Part shown: positions 3,849 to 27,811 of the stretch, one piece after another
Position numbering within the stretch: position 1 is the stretch's first letter
Layout: each line of letters opens with the position of its first letter
NCBI GenBank assembly: GCA_963930775.1
Contig: OZ005695.1
Location: 4,960,001-5,024,000, forward strand
Length of the DNA stretch: 64,000 nt
Direction: 5' to 3'
Origin: Cliona cf. orientalis
Taxonomy: Eukaryota; Porifera; Demospongiae; Clionaida; Clionaidae
The notes under the pieces: generated by a model
The model's database searches: none
What the model was told of the DNA's origin: nothing
What the model saw: the letters and a program-made list of their open reading frames with translations, nothing else
Made by a program: the position numbers and the translations under genes

Positions 3849-4094
3849 TGACTCATTTTTGTTGCAAGAAAATGATCACCTTACCACAGTTGCCCATGCA
3901 GAGTATGTGGCAGCCTATAGAAAATCAAAAAATTGATTGATCATTCTATTATCCTGGCATAATTACTGCATAGCAGTGAGGTTTTTGACTTGATGATTTG
4001 GTGAATTCGGTATGGACCGCTAAAAGCATTCAGATTGCCAAATTTAACTTCCAATGGCCATTTCAATAGCATTAATATTATGTGTACTACTGTA

Positions 4095-4520
4095 TGGCAT
4101 TCCAACACTGACAAAATTGGCAAGCTCAAATACATGGTCAAACTTGAGTCAGATAATTAAATATGATCAAACTCAAATATGTGGTCAAAATTGTTGCCGA
4201 TATATGTTCAAAGCCAAATATATGGTCAAATTTTATATGATCAAACTCTCAAATATATGGTCAAACGTAAGTTATGGTCAAATGTATATATAAGTTTTGA
4301 ATTTGCATTTCACCACGTATTTGAGCTACTGAACGCCCCTATAGTCAAATATGCAGCAAATATATGGTGAAAATTCAAGAAGATTCCCTTACATAATAGT
4401 CACGGATATGACGTATCTATTAGTTAATTGGACCGACGTGACGTCAACAGAATCTGCGTTCGCGAATAAAATTCGCAATCACGCGCACGATCGAACGTAC
4501 ATCCACGATCACTACCTTAT
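4095..4520 (+). repeat. Left terminal inverted repeat of the 8.9-kb element
   Basis: It contains subrepeats of the type ATATGGTCAAA (many copies from 4130 to 4285) and then a conserved block around 4410-4480 (GACGTATCTATTAGTTAATT, then a GACGTCA palindrome and TTCGCGAATAAAATTCGC). All parts occur in reverse order and orientation at 12600-13004. Confidence 0.85.
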
Positions 4521-4521
4521 G

Positions 4522-4616
4522 TAGTCTCCTTCACGGACCCGCCCCCTTTAGGGCGGAGTCTGGGGACTTGACCATCTCGCTCCGCTCCTACGTGGGAGGG
4601 CTGGTGCGCAAGACTA
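4522..4616. mobile_element. Short TAGTCTC-ended element (inverted copy at 11515-11625)
   Basis: It begins TAGTCTCC and ends AAGACTA. Between them are the words GGACCCGCCCCC, GGGCGGAGTCTGGGGACTTG and CTCGCTCCGCTCC. The same words occur on the opposite strand at 11515-11625, flanked by TAGTCTCGCG and CGAGACTA. Confidence 0.65.
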
Positions 4617-4639
4617 GGTAAAATCGGATATTGTATTGT

Positions 4640-6432
4640 ATGGTATTAAGGTACCATTTAATTGCGTGGGCGTGAGCGTCAGGAATGGCTAATTCAATTA
4701 GCGAATCGTGAAGGGGCGTGGCCGAAGAGGCCATACGAGTGCTTTTGGTCGAAGGTGGGCGTGTCCAGAATCGGCCAGGGATGATTATGCGCGTGTAATT
4801 AGCGACCGGAAGTGGCCCCTGAAGAAAAGGCCGGTAATTGCCCACATCAAAGCAAGATCAAAGCATTCTTTCTTAACTATTAACCGCAACGACAAAAAAA
4901 AAAAAAGCTTATTAGGCCTAATTAAGCATGTGGGCGTGTTCCTGGCACTGTGTGGAGTGTGCGCGTGTGCATTAATGCAGGTTTTATTGCTTCCGATTGG
5001 GCGTGGCTTCACGGGCCAGTGCTTGGACATCGGCGCCTGGGACTTGGCCTCGGCGATAGGTGGGCGTGTCCCGGAAGCGGTGGTGACCTTTGAACCCCGA
5101 GAGGAGGCTTTGGGGGCGTGGCAGGAGGTCAAAGGTGAGGCCATGTCTGTTAATGAGGCACTGTACGGCGGTGCGATCGAGGGGCCTGTACGGCTGGACG
5201 GAAGCTGACGATGGTTTGAAGCGGATGTGGTTGCGATGACGTGTTGTTACTCCGCCCACACAGGAAATGAGGTGAGCTCTTGCGTGGGCGGTGTGGCAGA
5301 ACGGCCTCCAAGTGTTTGTGTGTGTTTTGGCCTTGAGGAAGCTGTGTGTTTTAATTGGGATTGATTGTGGGCTTCCGGTGGACATCCGGTGGTTAGTAGG
5401 CACTTGATTGAGAATGGTGGTCCTTGGGGAACAGGGTGGGGCTGTTTTGGGCGTGGCCTGGCCCCTCCCTTCCGGCTCGGCTTCCGGTCCATGGAGGATA
5501 TTAAATTAACACTTCCGGCTCTAGCAGCCACACCCCTGAGACCTGTGCAATTAAAAGGGCGTGGTTACACAACATGCACCTCACTAATGACTTTGATGTG
5601 GTTTAGGTGTCATATCCCCCACCTCACGCCCACGCAATTTAATGGTACCTTAATGGTACATTCTCAATCAAGTGCCTACTAACCACCGGATGTCCACCGG
5701 AAGCCCACAATCAATCCCAATTAAAACACACAGCTTCCTCAAGGCCAAAACACACACAAACACTTGGAGGCCGTTCTGCCACACCGCCCACGCAAGAGCT
5801 CACGTCATTTCCTGTGTGGGCGGAGTAACAACACGTCATCGCAACCACATCCGCTTCAAACCATCGTCAGCTTCCGTCCAGCCGTACAGGCCCCTCGATC
5901 GCACCGGCGTACAGTGCCTCATTAACTGACATGGCCTCACCTTTGACCTCCTGCCACGCCCCCAAAGCCTCCTCGCGGGGTTCAAAGGTCACCACCGCTT
6001 CCGGGACACGCCCACCTATCGCCGAGGCCAAGTCCCAGGCGCCGATGTCCAAGCACTGGCCCGTGAAGCCACGCCCAATCGGAAGCAATAAAACCTGCAT
6101 TAACGCACACGCACACACTCCACACAGTGCCAGGAACACGCCCACATGCTTAATTAGGCCTAATAAGGCTTTTTTTTGTCGTTGCGGTTAATAGTTAAGA
6201 AAGAATGCTTTGATCTTGCTTTGATGTGGGCAATTACCGGCCTTTTCTTCAGGGGCCACTTCCGGTCGCTAATTACACGCGCATAATCATCCCTGGCCGA
6301 TTCTGGACACGCCCACCTTCGACCAAAAGCACTCGTATGGCCTCTTCGGCCACGCCCCTTCACGATTCGCTAATTGAATTAGCCATTCCTGATGCTCACG
6401 CCCACGCAATTAAATGGTACCTTAAGGTACCA
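4640..6432. repeat. Large palindrome: about 775-bp inverted arms around a 243-bp spacer
   Basis: Arm 4640-5416 and arm 5660-6432 are reverse complements with only scattered substitutions and a poly-A/poly-T length difference near 4890 and 6170. The spacer is 5417-5659. The region is much richer in GC than its surroundings and crowded with GGGCGTG/CACGCCC words. A transcript across it would fold into a long hairpin. The open frame 4708-5208 (166 codons) reappears in the other arm and, truncated, at 9865-10080, but it matches no family I know and is frameshifted in the second arm by the poly-A difference. I treat it as non-coding. Confidence 0.9.
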
Positions 6433-7157
6433 TCAAAGTGCTTGGGCGTGAGGTGGGGAATATGACACCTAAACCACATCAAATTCTTAAGGGAGGGGCA
6501 TGTTGTGTGACCACGCCCTTTTAATTTCCCAAGTCTCAGGGGTGTGGCTACTAGAGCCGTAAGTGTTCAATTAAAATCCTCAATGGTCCGGAAGCCAAGC
6601 CGGAAGGGAGGGGCCAGACCACACCCAAAACAGCACCACCCTGTGCCTCAAGGACCACCATTCTCAATCAAGTGCCGACTGGCCACTGGATGTCCACCGG
6701 AAGCCCACAATCAATCCCAATTAAAACACACAGCTTCCTCAAGGCCGTTCGGCCACACCGCCCACACAAGAGCGCACCTCATTTCCTGTGTGGGCGGGGT
6801 AGCAACACGTCATCGCAACCACATCCGCTTCAAACCATCGTCAGCTTCCGTCCAGCCATACGGTCCCCTCGATTGCACCGGTGTACAGTGCCTCATTAAC
6901 TGACATGGCCTCACCTTTGACCTCCTGCCACGCCCCCAAAGCCTCCTGTCGGAGTTCAAAGGTCACCACCGCATCCGGCACACGCCCACCTACGTAGCTA
7001 CCGCCGCGGCCAAGTCCTAGGCCCCGATGTCCAAGCACTGGCCCGTGGAGCCACGCCCAATCGGAAGCAACAAAACCTGCATTAACGCACACGCACACAC
7101 TGCACACAGTGCCTGGAACACGCCCATATGCTTAATTAGGCCTAATTAGCTTTTTTC
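6433..7157 (-). repeat. Second inverted copy of the palindrome unit (spacer plus arm), split by an insertion
   Basis: 6436-6665 is a diverged inverted copy of the spacer (5417-5640). 6666-7157 is a diverged copy of arm 5660-6175, ending at the GCCTAATTAGCTTTTTT site. The missing remainder of the arm, from GTCGTTGCGGTTAATAG on, resumes at 9893-10139. The 2.7 kb between the two halves is the tandem array. The copy differs from the palindrome arms far more than they differ from each other, so it is older or was not homogenised. Confidence 0.85.
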
Positions 7158-9892
7158 AAGGAGACCACACACAAGCAGAAAAAAAAATTGTTTGAAAACG
7201 GCCACATAGTTGAGCTGGATGCATAGTAGAGCCATATAATGCAAGTAGGCAGCCAACACAGCAATTTTGATCAAAGTGGGTAATGATCGTCACGTTAATG
7301 TGCACGCGTGGCCCCGCCCCTCACGTAGCGCGTGGGCGGAAAACATTGCAAATGCATGGCTTCCTATACAAACATATGGGAGAACTTCAAAGGGCCGTAA
7401 CTTTAATTCTAAGGCGTGAATCAAAATTCCCCAAAGTCAAATCTCTAGTTTCGACCCATTCTGTGTGTGTCATGTAAAAATTATCTCCCCAAGTGCTCCC
7501 AACCCCCCCAACATTAATTAATTATTTAAAAACTTTTTTCTACTTAGTGTATAACAGGCTAAGCAGAAAAAAACTTGTCCAGAAACCACATAATACACCT
7601 AGGATGCACAGTAGAGCCATACAAAGCAAGCGAATAACCTATACTCCAATTTTGAGAAATTTCTAAATAACGCACACCACGAGTATCCCCCGTTTTTCAC
7701 GTAGCGCGTGGGCGGAAAACATTGCAAACGCATGGCTTCCAATTCCCTATACAAACATATGGGAAAACTAAAGGGCCGTAACTAATTCTAAGGTGTGGAT
7801 CAAAATTCCGCTTCCAAGAAATTTCCAGGTGCGATCCATTCTGCGTGCTCATATGAATAGTTCGTCGTGAAGGGCTTCCCAAAATCTCAAACATTATTTA
7901 CATTAAATCTTTTTCAAGCTAGTGTGCACACTAAGCAGAAAAAAATAAATTGTCCAGAAAACCACATAATACACCTAGGATGCACAGTAGAGCTATACAA
8001 AGCAAGCAAACAACCTATACTCCAATTTTGAGAAAGTTTCTAAATAACGCACACCACGGGTATTCCCCGTTTTTCACGTAGCGCGTGGGCGGAAAACATT
8101 GCAAACGTATGGCTTCCCTATACAAACATACTTTAAAGGGCTGTAACTTTAATTCTAAGGTGTGAATCAAAATTTTGCTTCCAACAGGTACGATCCATTC
8201 TGCGTGCTCATATGAATAGTTTGTCGTGAATAGCTTCCCAGAGTCTCAAACATTATTTACATTAAATCTTTTTTTTTTCTACTTAGTGTGTAATTTTTCA
8301 AGTTATGGACACACTAAGTAGAAAAAACAGTCCAGAGACCACCACATAATTGAGCTGGACGCATAATAGACCCATGCAATGCAAGCAAGCAGCCTAAACT
8401 TCAATTTTGACCAAAGTGGGTAAAGGTCGTCACGTTACTGTGCGCGCGTAGCCACCGCGTGGGCGGAAATCTTGCACATGTATGGCTTCCCTATACAAAC
8501 ATATGGGAAAACTTTAAAGTGCCATAACTTTAATTTTAAGGCATGAATCAAAATTCTGTTCCATCAAATTTCCAGGGGCAATCCATTCTGCGTGCTCACG
8601 TAAACCATTTGTCATGAATAGCTTCCCAGAGTCTCAAACATTAATTAATTATTTAATAGTTTAAATTTTTCTACTTAGTGTGTAACAAGGGGACCACACA
8701 CTAAGCAGAAAAAAAATTGTCCAGAAACCACCATATAATCGAGCTGGATGCATAGTAGAACCATACAATGCAACCAGGCAGCCTAAACTTCAATTTTGTC
8801 AAAAAGTTGGTGAAGGTCGTCACGTTTCTGTGCGCGCGAAGCCCCACCCCTCACGTAGCGCGTGGGCGGAAAACATTGCAAATGCATGGCTTCTCTATAC
8901 AAACATGGGAATACTTTAAAGTGCCATAACTTTAATTCTAAGGTGTGAATCAAAATTCCGCGCCATCAAATTTCATATTTTGACCCATTCTGCGTGCCCG
9001 TATAAAAATTACGTCCCCAAGTGCTCCCAATTCCTCCACGAATTATTTCTTTTTTCTTCTACTTAGTGTGAAATTTCTACTTAGTGTGTAACAAGCTAGC
9101 GTGCACACTAAGCAGAAAAAAATTGTCCAGAAAACCACGTAATACACCGAGGATGCACAGTACAGCCATACAAAGCAAGCAAACAACCTATATAATATAC
9201 TCCAAATTTGAGAAAGATTCTAAATAACGCACACCACGGGTATTCCCCGTTTTTCACGTAGCGCGTGGGCGGAAAACATTGCTAACGCATGGCTTCCCTA
9301 TACAGACATATGGGAAAACTTTAAAGGGCCGTAATTTTAATTATAAGGTGTGAATCAAAATTCTATTCCATCAAATTTCCAGGTGCCATCCATTCTGCGT
9401 GCTCATGTGAACAGTTTGTCATGAGAGTCTCGAACATTAATTAATTGTTTAATAGTTTATTTTCAAGGGGACCACACACTAAGCAGAAAAAATGGTCTGA
9501 AAACCACCACACAATCAAGCTGGATTCATAGTAGAGCCATAAAATGCAAGCAGGCACCCAAACAGCAATACACACAATGTTCGGTAAAGGGTCGTCAACG
9601 TACCCCGCGCGCCCGTAAAATTTATCCCATTTGCCCGCAAAAATTTTTTGGCAAATATTGCAAGTGAATGGCTTCCTATACAAACTTCAAAGAGCCATAA
9701 CTTTAATTCTAGGGCATGAATCAAAAAAGTCTCTCGATCAAAGTTCGTAATTTGAGCCATTCTGCGTGCCCATATAAAAATTATAGTCCCAACCGCTCCC
9801 CAGAGTCCCAATAATTAACATCTTTTTTTTTCTACTTAGTGTGTAATTTCTATTTAGCGTGTAACTACTTAGTGATCTGCTTAGTGTGTAAT
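7158..9892. repeat. Head-to-tail array of seven about 370-420-bp inverted-repeat units
   Basis: Units begin near 7169, 7558, 7926, 8310, 8696, 9105 and 9473 with CACACTAAGCAGAAAAAA (first unit degenerate) and end with TTTTTTCTACTTAGTGTG, its imperfect reverse complement. Each unit is therefore itself MITE-like. Conserved internal blocks in every unit include CACGTAGCGCGTGGGCGGAA, GGCTTCCCTATACAAACATA and AGGGCCGTAACTTTAATTCT, and then CCATTCTGCGTGC. Spacing is about 368-419 bp. The array interrupts a copy of the palindrome arm (left half ends 7157, right half starts 9893). No open frame runs through the units. Confidence 0.88.
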
Positions 9893-10139
9893 AAGTCGTT
9901 GCGGTTAATAGTTAAGAAAGAATGCTTTGATCTTGCTTTGATGGGGGCAATTACCGGTCTTTTCTTCAGGGACCACTTCCGGTCGCTAATTACACGCGCA
10001 TAATCATCCCTGGCTCTTTCTGGACACGCCCACCTTCGACCAAAAGCACTCGTATGGCCTCTTTGGTCACGCCCCCTCACGATTCGCTAATTGAATTAGC
10101 CAATCCTCACGCTCACGCCCACGCACTTTAATGGTACCT
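9893..10139 (-). repeat. Right half of the split palindrome-arm copy
   Basis: Matches 6179-6425 in order and orientation, from GTCGTTGCGGTTAATAG to ATGGTACCTT, with scattered substitutions. Together with 6666-7157 it reconstitutes one arm around the array insertion. Confidence 0.85.
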
Positions 10140-10258
10140 TGGTAAGCATGAATGAAACTACTAGCTATATTAATAATATATCCTACTGCACCTGGTGTGT
10201 CCCTAGTCTCGCGAGCCAGCCCCTCCTACGCAAAGAGAGAGTCTGGTGAATGAACCTA

Positions 10259-10799
10259 CCGTATAGCCAGAAATATTGGCGAGCATTAAATTTGGCGGTT
10301 GAGCCCAAAATCGCTATTGCAAGAATATTGGCGGATTTAAATTTGGCGGTTCGTTACGGCATCGCCATACGTATATATGCGAGTAGGAAATTTTGGCGGT
10401 TGTAATATAGTCTCGCGCATCCAGACTCTTACACCTCGGGAGAGAGAGTCTGGTAAAGTGCTATACATCGAGTTGTCCCAGCGCCTCGTACGAGGCGCGA
10501 CCAATCAGATTGCATCTTTAGTTTTCGGTGGCATATCCGATTGTGAACGGAAAATAAACACGCGTGCGCAAGAGTATCTCGTCCGTTCACAGTCGGATAC
10601 GCCACCGCAAACTATGTAATGCCATGAAGATGCAATCTGATTGGTCGCGCCTCTTAAGTTACCAGGCGCTGGGACAACTCGATGTGTAGTACTTTACCAG
10701 ACTCTCTCCCTCCCCCTCCCGAGGTGTAAGAGTCTGGCTGCGCGAGACTAGTTGTAATATAGACCCGGCGCCAAACCGCCAAATTTTCCGGCTATACGG
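10259..10799. mobile_element. CCGTATAGCC-ended MITE carrying an insertion
   Basis: TA-flanked ends CCGTATAGCCAGAAATATTG and, on the right, CCGGCTATACGG. Removing the inner element and one duplication copy leaves about 189 bp, close to the uninterrupted relative at 44326-44522 (197 bp) with the same ATTTGGCGG internal words. Confidence 0.85.
10408..10750. mobile_element. 343-bp TAGTCTCGCG-ended palindromic element with an exact 9-bp target duplication
   Basis: The ends TAGTCTCGCGCATCCAGACT and its complement (…GCGCGAGACTA) enclose long inverted arms (CGAGTTGTCCCAGCGCCT and AGGCGCTGGGACAACTCG, then GCGCGACCAATCAGATTGCA and its complement). GTTGTAATA precedes it at 10399-10407 and follows it at 10751-10759. 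It sits inside the MITE 10259-10799, which allows the order of insertion to be read. Confidence 0.9.
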
Positions 10800-11514
10800 T
10801 ACTTCTGTTTGTTCCTTGGCAGAGGCTATAGGTACGATATAGGAACTACCAATGAGATTGCAGACTCGTGTCATGTGACCAGTTAATGTATGCGCAAGGA
10901 GTATAATTCTCGCGCACATAAGACTATTCTATGCCGTCCACAGGCCGCTGAGCCAGTTATCGAGCGCTAGCATGCCTACTGCGTCTGCTGACTAGGGTAC
11001 GCCGACCATAGATGCGCCAACTAAGGAGAAGGTGATCTTAAATTTGTACAGTGACCAACAGTGTTTGTGCCTACCTGGTGTTCTCGAGTCTGCTCATACC
11101 AAGGCTATCTTTTCAAATATCATCGTTTATCGTTTTTTTTTTTTTTTTTTTGGCCATCGCTGCTTGTCCTCAGTGTCCTCCATTGCAGGAATTCTGAATT
11201 TCTTCTGCTGATCGAGATCGCACAGAAAATAGCAAGCAAGCGCACTCATTATTATCATCGCGAAGCGCATTGCGGTTAGGTATACGTGATATAATGTACA
11301 TTCCAATGGAACAAACGGAAGTAGGTTCATTCACCAGACCCTCTCTCTCTTTGCGTAGGAGGGGCTGGCTCGCGAGACTATGTCTTACCTGGGCTAGCCT
11401 TACCCCAGGCCCTCTCGATCTCCAAGCATTTATTATGGAAGATAGAGAGAGGGCCTGGGGACACGGGTAGCTCAGCTAATTTCATTCGTACTTGTTACAA
11501 TGTCCGATTGTACC

Positions 11515-11625
11515 TAGTCTCGCGCGCCAGCCCTACGAAGGAGGGATCGTAGCGGAGCGCGCGAGATGGCCAAGTCTCCAGACTCCGCCCCAGAGGAGGA
11601 GGGGGCGGGTCCGTGAACGAGACTA
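11515..11625. mobile_element. Short TAGTCTCGCG-ended element (inverted relative of 4522-4616)
   Basis: Begins TAGTCTCGCGCGCCAGCCC and ends CGAGACTA. The interior is the reverse complement of the element near the left end of the 8.9-kb transposon, so it may belong to the extended inverted structure of that transposon. Confidence 0.6.
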
Positions 11626-11800
11626 CATAGCGGCAGAGGAGGTTGGTCACAGATTCTAATTAGAATACGTTTGCCATAGGCTGCAGTGTACGCCCACGCA
11701 ACCCAGATCAACCCGCTGAGTCAGCAAAAACAATTCATTGTATATGATGCGCGATAATAAAATGCACATTCCGCGAAAATTGTGACCAACCTCCTCTGAC

Positions 11801-12575
11801 CAGGGACTATACAGATGGACTGGAAACGCTACATTATTACGCTCGCGAAAATTCTACAATCATCGTTACGCCCGGAAGTGTACCCGGAAATGTCTGACAG
11901 TATTGCTACTATACTGGACTAGGGTGCCATGACAAGTCAATATGGCCGTCTAGTACTTCTATGAAGGCTTGTAGGAAACTCTTAGATAATGTTTAGCACA
12001 CCAAATGTTGTTTACCCAGTGAAGCAACGGGTAAACTTACTTTTTACGTTTGAATAATGCTCATGTCTGTTTTAGTTCGTGAGATTATCCAGCACAAAAG
12101 GTGTCCATCTTTGTCAAGTAAATTTTTAAACTTAGGGGGTCTTGTGCTCCTACCAGCTCAAAAGAATACTGTGCACCCAGTAAAGCAAGATTGGGGCTTA
12201 CTACTCGCGCTGTGTAGAATCCTATGAGAGCTTCACTTTCTGAGCTAATCCAGCACAAAGTATTGCCAGGACATGAAAAGTAGCCATACTGAACTTTTTC
12301 ACTCATAGAGAGCGCACTCAGAAGCACACTCACCACAAAAATAATGGCTTTCAGCACATTGTATCGACTATGGTCTACTGTAGACGCCCTCACAGACGCT
12401 GACTCCGTTCACGGTCAGGTCGACCACCGTTGATGTTTCCAAGCAGCCTTTGTAGCTTCTTACCGCTCGCGATATTTTTTACCCGTAACGATGATTGCAG
12501 AAACGGAAATGTGTACTTTGTAATAGGGCGGCGCGCGCGTTTCCAGTCCATCTGAAAGATAATGTATAGTCCCTG
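11801..12575. mobile_element. 775-bp CAGGGACTATACAG-ended element (hAT-like ends)
   Basis: The left end CAGGGACTATACAGATGGAC and the right end …ATAGTCCCTG are inverted repeats. CTCTGAC directly precedes and directly follows it (7 bp, or 8 with one mismatch). CAGGG termini with an 8-bp duplication are typical of hAT elements. A second, inverted copy lies at 36570-37955. There is no transposase; open frames within it are short. Confidence 0.72.
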
Positions 12576-12599
12576 CTCTGACATAATTATGCATAGCGG

Positions 12600-13004
12600 G
12601 TAAAGGATAGTGGGTGGACGTTTGTGCGCGCGATCGCGAATTTTATTCGCGAACTCGGATTCTGGCCGGCCCGCGCCTGGCTGTGATTCTGTTGACGTCA
12701 TGTCGGTCCAATTAACTAATAAATACGTCATATCCGTGACTATTATATAAGGGGATCTTCTTGAATTTTGACCATATATTTGCTGCATATATGGGCATTC
12801 AGTAGCTCAAATACATGGTGAAATGCAAAATTTATATAGTTAACCATAACTTACGTTTGACCATGTATTTGAGTTTGATCATATAAAGTTTGACAATATA
12901 TTTGGCTTTGAACATAATAATATTATATCAGCAACAATTTTGACCACATATTGGAGTTTGACCATGTATTTGAGCTTGCCAATTTGTCAGTGTTGGAATG
13001 CCAC
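12600..13004 (-). repeat. Right terminal inverted repeat of the 8.9-kb element
   Basis: Reverse complement of 4095-4520, including the TTTGACCATATA subrepeats, the GACGTCA block and the terminal TGTCAGTGTTGGAATGCCA. Confidence 0.85.
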
Positions 13005-13230
13005 ACTACTGTATGTAATTCCACTCCCCGGCATCATCTATAATATTAAAAACTTGGATTGTTAGGCAATGACCAACAGTTGACAATGTATACTCTGTAC
13101 ATGGCTACAAACTAGCTAAATAAGCTGTACACATGTCATGGCTTATTAGTCATGAACATACACAAAATAAACATCAGTAGCCTGGTAATTAATCCTTGTA
13201 ATTACTGAAATATGATAAATTAGTTAAAAG

Positions 13231-26990: not shown

Positions 26991-27811
26991 TAGTGATCTT
27001 CCTCACAGTTACACACTCCTCAGGAGTGTAAGTGAATATTGGTAGGCACAATATATCGTACTCTTGTCCCTCTGTGTCGATATAATGTTTTTTATTAGCA
27101 ATGTAATCGTAACGACTGTAATCGTAAGCCTATTGAAAATTTCCCTGCAACACCTCCTGTGGGAGAAAGGTTGGTATCTATCAATACATTGTAGATCTAC
27201 ACCCACTTTTGTACCTTGAGCACATACACGTACATTTACATCTAGTCATTAGCCTCACCTGAGGTTTGTAGTAGCTAGGATAACAACCAATCATCAAGTA
27301 TAAACTCGTAAACGACAGCCATATTGGCTGCTAGAAGTGAAACTAGTTCATTACTTCATTTTTGAATGCTTGACAAATTCTATTTAATGCACACTCAACA
27401 ATGCTGGTGACTAGACTAGCGACTCGATAATTTGGGGAAACAACACTGTTACCTTAATCACTATAGCATCATACCGATAGCTTCCTAGATTTCACTACTG
27501 TACTAGTGAGGTATGAAGCTACTCGGTTCTTATATCCTTTGCGTGCGTATTGCACAATGGTTAGGTAATGCTACCAAATCACAATTATTTTGTGAATGGC
27601 ACACAACTTCCTTTTGAGTACAGACTCTTATTCATACCAGAACTATGAGAATAACATACCCGTAGATTTCATCATCCCCCAGATGGCAAACCAGGCTATT
27701 GCACCACCACGTTCAAATTTTGCGCAGTCAGTCTTTCAAGGTCAAAGGTTGTGGCTATGCTACGCTACGTAAGGGGAAATACCCTGGGCTGAGCGGCAAA
27801 GTGCTATAGCC
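26991..27811. promoter_or_regulatory. Head-to-head intergenic region of GTPBP1 and GID4
   Basis: The two start codons diverge across 821 bp, so this stretch must hold both 5' UTRs and promoters, possibly a shared bidirectional promoter. I see no clear TATA box or repeat; the sequence is AT-rich without open frames of note. GID4 may also have upstream 5' exons here that I could not recognise. Confidence 0.5.

Follow-up and report, generated by a model that had tools for sequence, protein, structure and literature searches.

IS3EU/GingerRoot transposons use a DDD/E transposase that is related to IS3/IS481 and is without HHCC. Mutator/MULE elements duplicate 8–11 bp of their target, mostly 9 bp, Polintons have AG..CT ends, and Dada elements show target specificity. 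In one paper, TA..TA ends are constant among complete IS3EU families, whose duplication is usually 6 bp, Polintons have a 6-bp duplication, and IS256 and MuDR jointly have duplications of 4–10 bp (PMC10045372). In a second source, IS3EU elements of rust fungi have 6-bp duplications, terminal inverted repeats (TIRs) of more than 30 bp, and TAYGG..CCRTA ends, and hAT6 elements with 6-bp duplications are on record (PMC12730594). Repbase assigns non-autonomous elements largely from terminal sequence and duplication features, according to PMC4455052. We describe an element at 4093–13005 of a 64,000-nucleotide stretch (the window) of the genome of the sponge Cliona cf. orientalis (contig OZ005695.1, positions 4,960,001–5,024,000). 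It very probably belongs to a family of non-autonomous DNA transposons of IS3EU (IS3EU/GingerRoot) type that move by cut and paste, and is a copy that became bloated locally. Its ends, its copy family, its 6-bp duplication, the unoccupied sites of sister copies, and its anatomy of a core plus inserts were observed directly.

Ends, target duplication and copy family

The original prediction, made from the window alone, placed a transposon of the Mutator/MULE superfamily at 4095–13004, with long inverted ends and a 9-bp duplication. The corrected limits are 4093–13005 (8.9 kb), with termini TATGGCATTCC..GGAATGCCACA. The long inverted ends are real: blastn aligned 4163–4454 with 12965–12685 at 85% and the outermost stretch, 4095–4144, with 13003–12955 at 98%. 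Aligned to each other, the two arms match in 295 of the 310 columns that are free of gaps (59 more columns contain gaps), for a score of 190 versus at most 13 in 50 shuffles. The right terminus reads CA, where the family reads TA. The 9-bp duplication is a real repeat that was misread. The direct repeat at the flanks is CTACTG, 6 bp (Table 1), and the 9-mer ACTACTGTA, present at 4086 and 13005 and again within the window at 27494 and 58302, is A + CTACTG + TA, in which the letters beyond the 6 bp come in part from the TA of the element itself and in part from chance. An empty site of the window copy was not found in this assembly, where both flanks are single-copy and match only themselves.

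A search of the 217-Mb genome for the 29-base terminus, allowing up to three mismatches, gave 88 forward and 85 reverse matches, and a reversed-pattern control gave 0. Exact 14-mer ends number 153, and halving the 153 14-mer ends or the 173 29-mer ends gives a family of roughly 75–87 copies. Pairing was performed on 123 merged listed ends, including the first 100 places of the 29-base search (173 ends), and gave 48 inverted pairs; 27 ends were left unpaired, at least 7 of which do have a mate outside those listings. Most listed pairs (37 of 48) span 1.0–1.35 kb, and none is as long as the 8.9 kb of the window copy. A family unit measures about 1.1–1.3 kb, has no recognized coding, and consists mostly of a single long inverted repeat bounded by TATGGCATTCC ends; most of the unit aligns with its own reverse complement, with a median identity of 0.93 under permissive scoring. 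Across 82 arms of 300 bp, TATGGTCAAA-like motifs average 8.07 per arm one way, 0.29 the opposite way, and 0.02 after shuffling. These motifs are candidate transposase-binding sites.

Duplications were examined in the 48 pairs, and 47 were scored, including the window copy (L115 was unscorable). An exact 6-bp direct repeat lies outside TATGGC..GCCATA in 40 of the 47, including the window copy, and a 9-bp duplication in none. All 40 are distinct and have a mild bias to C/G at both outer positions. The proposed genome search with the end sequence thus returned the anticipated paired inverted copies with differing duplications, but these measure 6 bp in 40 of 47 copies and 9 bp in none. The 46 scored sister copies have TATGG..CCATA ends (one reads TATGGGC at the left), and the window copy has TA..CA. 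Copies were retrieved through their ends, but the terminal TAs lay outside the first query.

For 45 sister copies, the two flanks were joined and searched against the fetched loci and the window. Matches across the junction were found for five, and four of these are unoccupied sites that carry one 6-bp copy and no element; the terminal TA therefore belongs to the element. The unoccupied counterpart of L088 is a repeat copy at window 20900–20801 (88%), that of L076 lies in L058 (88%, with one base of the six changed), and that of L097 lies in L120 (86%, the match extending only 11 bp beyond the junction). The L084 counterpart (98%) falls in L084's own flank and is therefore a neighboring repeat unit. 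L082, where the target is altered, was not counted as a fifth site.

Several further copies were recorded. L091 (C4:4452608-4452828) is a 101-bp copy, scarcely more than both ends, with an exact 6-bp duplication, ACTTAG. L107 (C9:7680363-7681005) is a 523-bp copy whose flanks are mutually inverted over 12 bp rather than direct, and another end lies 2 kb away. An inverted pair of 14-base ends at C9:6773342-6775682 spans 2.3 kb, above the usual unit length.

Core and inserts of the window copy

Four blocks of the window copy form a 1,277-bp core that is collinear with sister copies (Table 1); the collinearity was established with slightly wider blocks. Over aligned columns, the core is 0.865–0.950 identical to 37 full-size copies (median 0.939), under a permissive scoring by which a shuffled core reaches 0.77–0.79. 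Stricter local scoring against the four copies tried gave 497–709, and shuffles (20 each) gave at most 14. The other 7.6 kb consists of other repeats in three blocks, as had been claimed for the interior. The 8.9-kb size was misleading as a Mutator trait: 7.6 kb of repeats sit in a 1.28-kb element. No closed stop-to-stop frame of at least 180 amino acids (aa) is present in the window, and scanning all 17 frames of at least 90 aa listed inside the element gave no Pfam matches at E ≤0.1. The window element is non-autonomous and without recognized coding capacity, in agreement with the predicted lack of a transposase.

Table 1. Features of the window copy and its flanks (window positions)
Feature	Position	Strand	Description
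Left target site duplication	4087..4092	.	CTACTG; same position holds an exact 6-bp duplication in 40/47 scored copies
Core block 1	4093..4647	+	Left inverted end (TATGGCATTCCAACACTG...) and subterminal region
Motif array	4133..4372	+	10 same-oriented TATGGTCAAA-like motifs (≤1 mismatch)
Insert A	4648..10140	.	Foreign block with GGTACC-ended repeats; TTAA (4646-4649) at left junction
Insert A1	4650..6421	.	Long inverted-repeat element with GGTACC ends; TTAA on both sides
Insert A2	6426..10138	.	Second GGTACC-ended element; abuts A1, TTAA common to both
Core block 2	10141..10203	+	Match to sister copies
Insert B	10204..11380	.	TAGTCTCGCGAG..CTCGCGAGACTA-ended repeat; TGTC near both ends (left: two extra bases)
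Core block 3	11381..11633	+	Match to sister copies
Insert C	11634..12591	.	Between 8-bp direct repeats CATAGCGG (11626-11633, 12592-12599)
Core block 4	12600..13005	-	Right inverted end; final bases CA versus family TA
Right target site duplication	13006..13011	.	CTACTG

The arms of insert A1 are complementary at 100% over the outer 256 bp and 98% over the inner 519 bp, and A1 looks recently inserted because this inverted repeat is nearly perfect. Insert A2 holds a tandem array of diverged units of about 385 bp at approximately 7142–9870. The left junction of insert A has no other genome match at 0–1 mismatch; the junction pattern recurs at two other loci, with 2 and 3 mismatches, which are probably unrelated sites. 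Insert B contains an inverted repeat at 10408–10750 and is missing from sister copies L003 and L025, and L010, L013, and L016 carry a different, shorter repeat with similar ends at its site. Insert C appears hAT-like, judging from the length of its 8-bp flanking repeat and its CAGAGG end. Within it, a CAGGGACTATACA..TGTATAGTCCCTG repeat (11801–12575) is flanked by CTCTGAC. As found here, inserts A, B, and C are absent from all five aligned sister copies. Repeats with TAGTCTCG-like ends occur at 10204–11380, 10408–10750, 4518–4616, and 11515–11629, and also within the core of sister copies.

Transposase searches and rival explanations

A genome search with the MULE profile (PF10551) gave 58 listed matches among the best 150 of 153 candidates, the longest frame being 1,308 aa; on shared contigs, the match nearest to any of the 123 listed family ends is 51 kb away. 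The rve_3 profile gave 67 matches among the best 150 of 433 candidates, each at least 15.8 kb from any of 132 family ends on shared contigs. The best 150 of 713 candidates for the rve profile include many matches in long frames; these appear to be of long terminal repeat retroelement size, and the list probably says little on a partner. On C4, a complete 1.2-kb copy has one rve match about 4 kb beyond its end, in a frame of 900 aa. A separate rve_3 match at C3:7196604-7196777 falls in a frame of 380 aa, which sets it apart from the many matches in long frames, and is a possible candidate for an IS3EU transposase. Five long frames were picked from the inward stretches of five unpaired ends (L054, L070, L116, L117, and L118), and Pfam matched none of them at E 0.01. 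The frame from L070 (L070:392-1141), 250 aa and open, lies in a 2.1-kb copy and by eye resembles a reverse-transcriptase fragment.

For a family of the IS3EU kind, a relative would provide a DDE transposase in trans, and this enzyme would bind the TATGGTCAAA-like motifs, cut at the TA..TA termini, and join the ends to the target with a 6-bp stagger, and gap repair would then produce the 6-bp duplications. After landing at CTACTG, the window copy would have received the TTAA-flanked repeats, the TAGTCTCG-ended repeat, and the hAT-like repeat. Several points weigh against this account. The putative superfamily assignment draws only on the ends and the duplication length, and a 6-bp duplication alone cannot exclude MuDR, given the 4–10 bp in PMC10045372. 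No transposase was found in the scanned frames of the window element, nor one linked to the listed family ends among the MULE and rve_3 matches. Seven of the 47 scored copies have no exact 6-bp duplication: two differ by one mismatch (L072 and L106), one has an exact 7-bp repeat (L093), and four have no good repeat (L090, L107, L109, and L114). About 10 bp of sister sequence is gone at the right junction of insert A, which is therefore not a clean insertion.

The original prediction, a Mutator/MULE element carrying captured foreign DNA, accounts for the long inverted ends and the 9-mer at both flanks, is compatible by length with the IS256/MuDR range just cited, and could draw on the 58 MULE-like matches in the genome. 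It is very unlikely in light of the duplications (6 bp in 40 of 47 copies, never 9 bp), the four unoccupied sites, the TATGG..CCATA ends, which match those given for IS3EU in PMC12730594, and the distance of every listed MULE match from the listed ends. If the 8.9-kb composite were itself mobile and had transposed with its cargo, its 6-bp duplication would flank the whole composite, as it does. This is extremely improbable: insert C lies between flanking repeats of its own and A and B between less clean ones, five aligned sister copies are without the inserts, and the left junction of insert A has no second match at 0–1 mismatch, so that the 8.9 kb have probably never moved as one unit. The idea of foreign-cargo loading was misleading, and there is no sign that the loaded form transposed.

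A family with 6-bp duplications might instead be mobilized by neither an IS3EU nor a MULE transposase, for example by hAT6, Dada, or an undescribed superfamily. No transposase was linked to the family among the matches listed, and hAT6 elements with 6-bp duplications exist (PMC12730594), but the terminal motif and duplication length jointly fit IS3EU, which makes this unlikely. For a Dada-type transposase, the 40 distinct duplications also speak against target specificity. It is quite unlikely that the family has IS3EU-like ends and no autonomous copy in the genome, and is moved by an undescribed type of transposase that recognizes oriented TATGGTCAAA arrays. The original prediction was right about a mobile element whose ends are paired and inverted, about a duplicated target, and about the missing transposase; its Mutator/MULE membership is not supported, and its loaded cargo was misleading.

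Comparison with known systems

There is no support here for a Mutator-like pack element, which would have been notable in an animal. The result corrects a plausible misreading, in which a 6-bp duplication, TA, and chance letters gave a Mutator-looking 9-bp repeat. A well-bounded family with clean duplications and unoccupied sites also aids the annotation of a poorly studied superfamily and the hunt for its transposase.

Polintons resemble the family in their long inverted ends and their 6-bp duplication (PMC10045372 for the latter), and differ in that the family has no recognized coding capacity and no AG..CT ends. Mutator/MULE (MuDR) elements also have long inverted ends, and the family's 6 bp falls in the 4–10-bp range given for IS256/MuDR in the same paper, but none of the 47 scored copies has the usual 9-bp duplication and no associated MULE transposase was seen among the matches listed. 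IS3EU/GingerRoot elements differ from the family, in which no transposase was seen and the unit is largely an inverted repeat with oriented subterminal motifs. They share with it the TA..TA termini, the 6-bp duplication, TATGG..CCATA ends that fit TAYGG..CCRTA, and inverted ends longer than 30 bp, with arms of more than 300 bp in the family. IS3EU-type families are already a known kind, and this family is most likely a new member, ordinary in kind.

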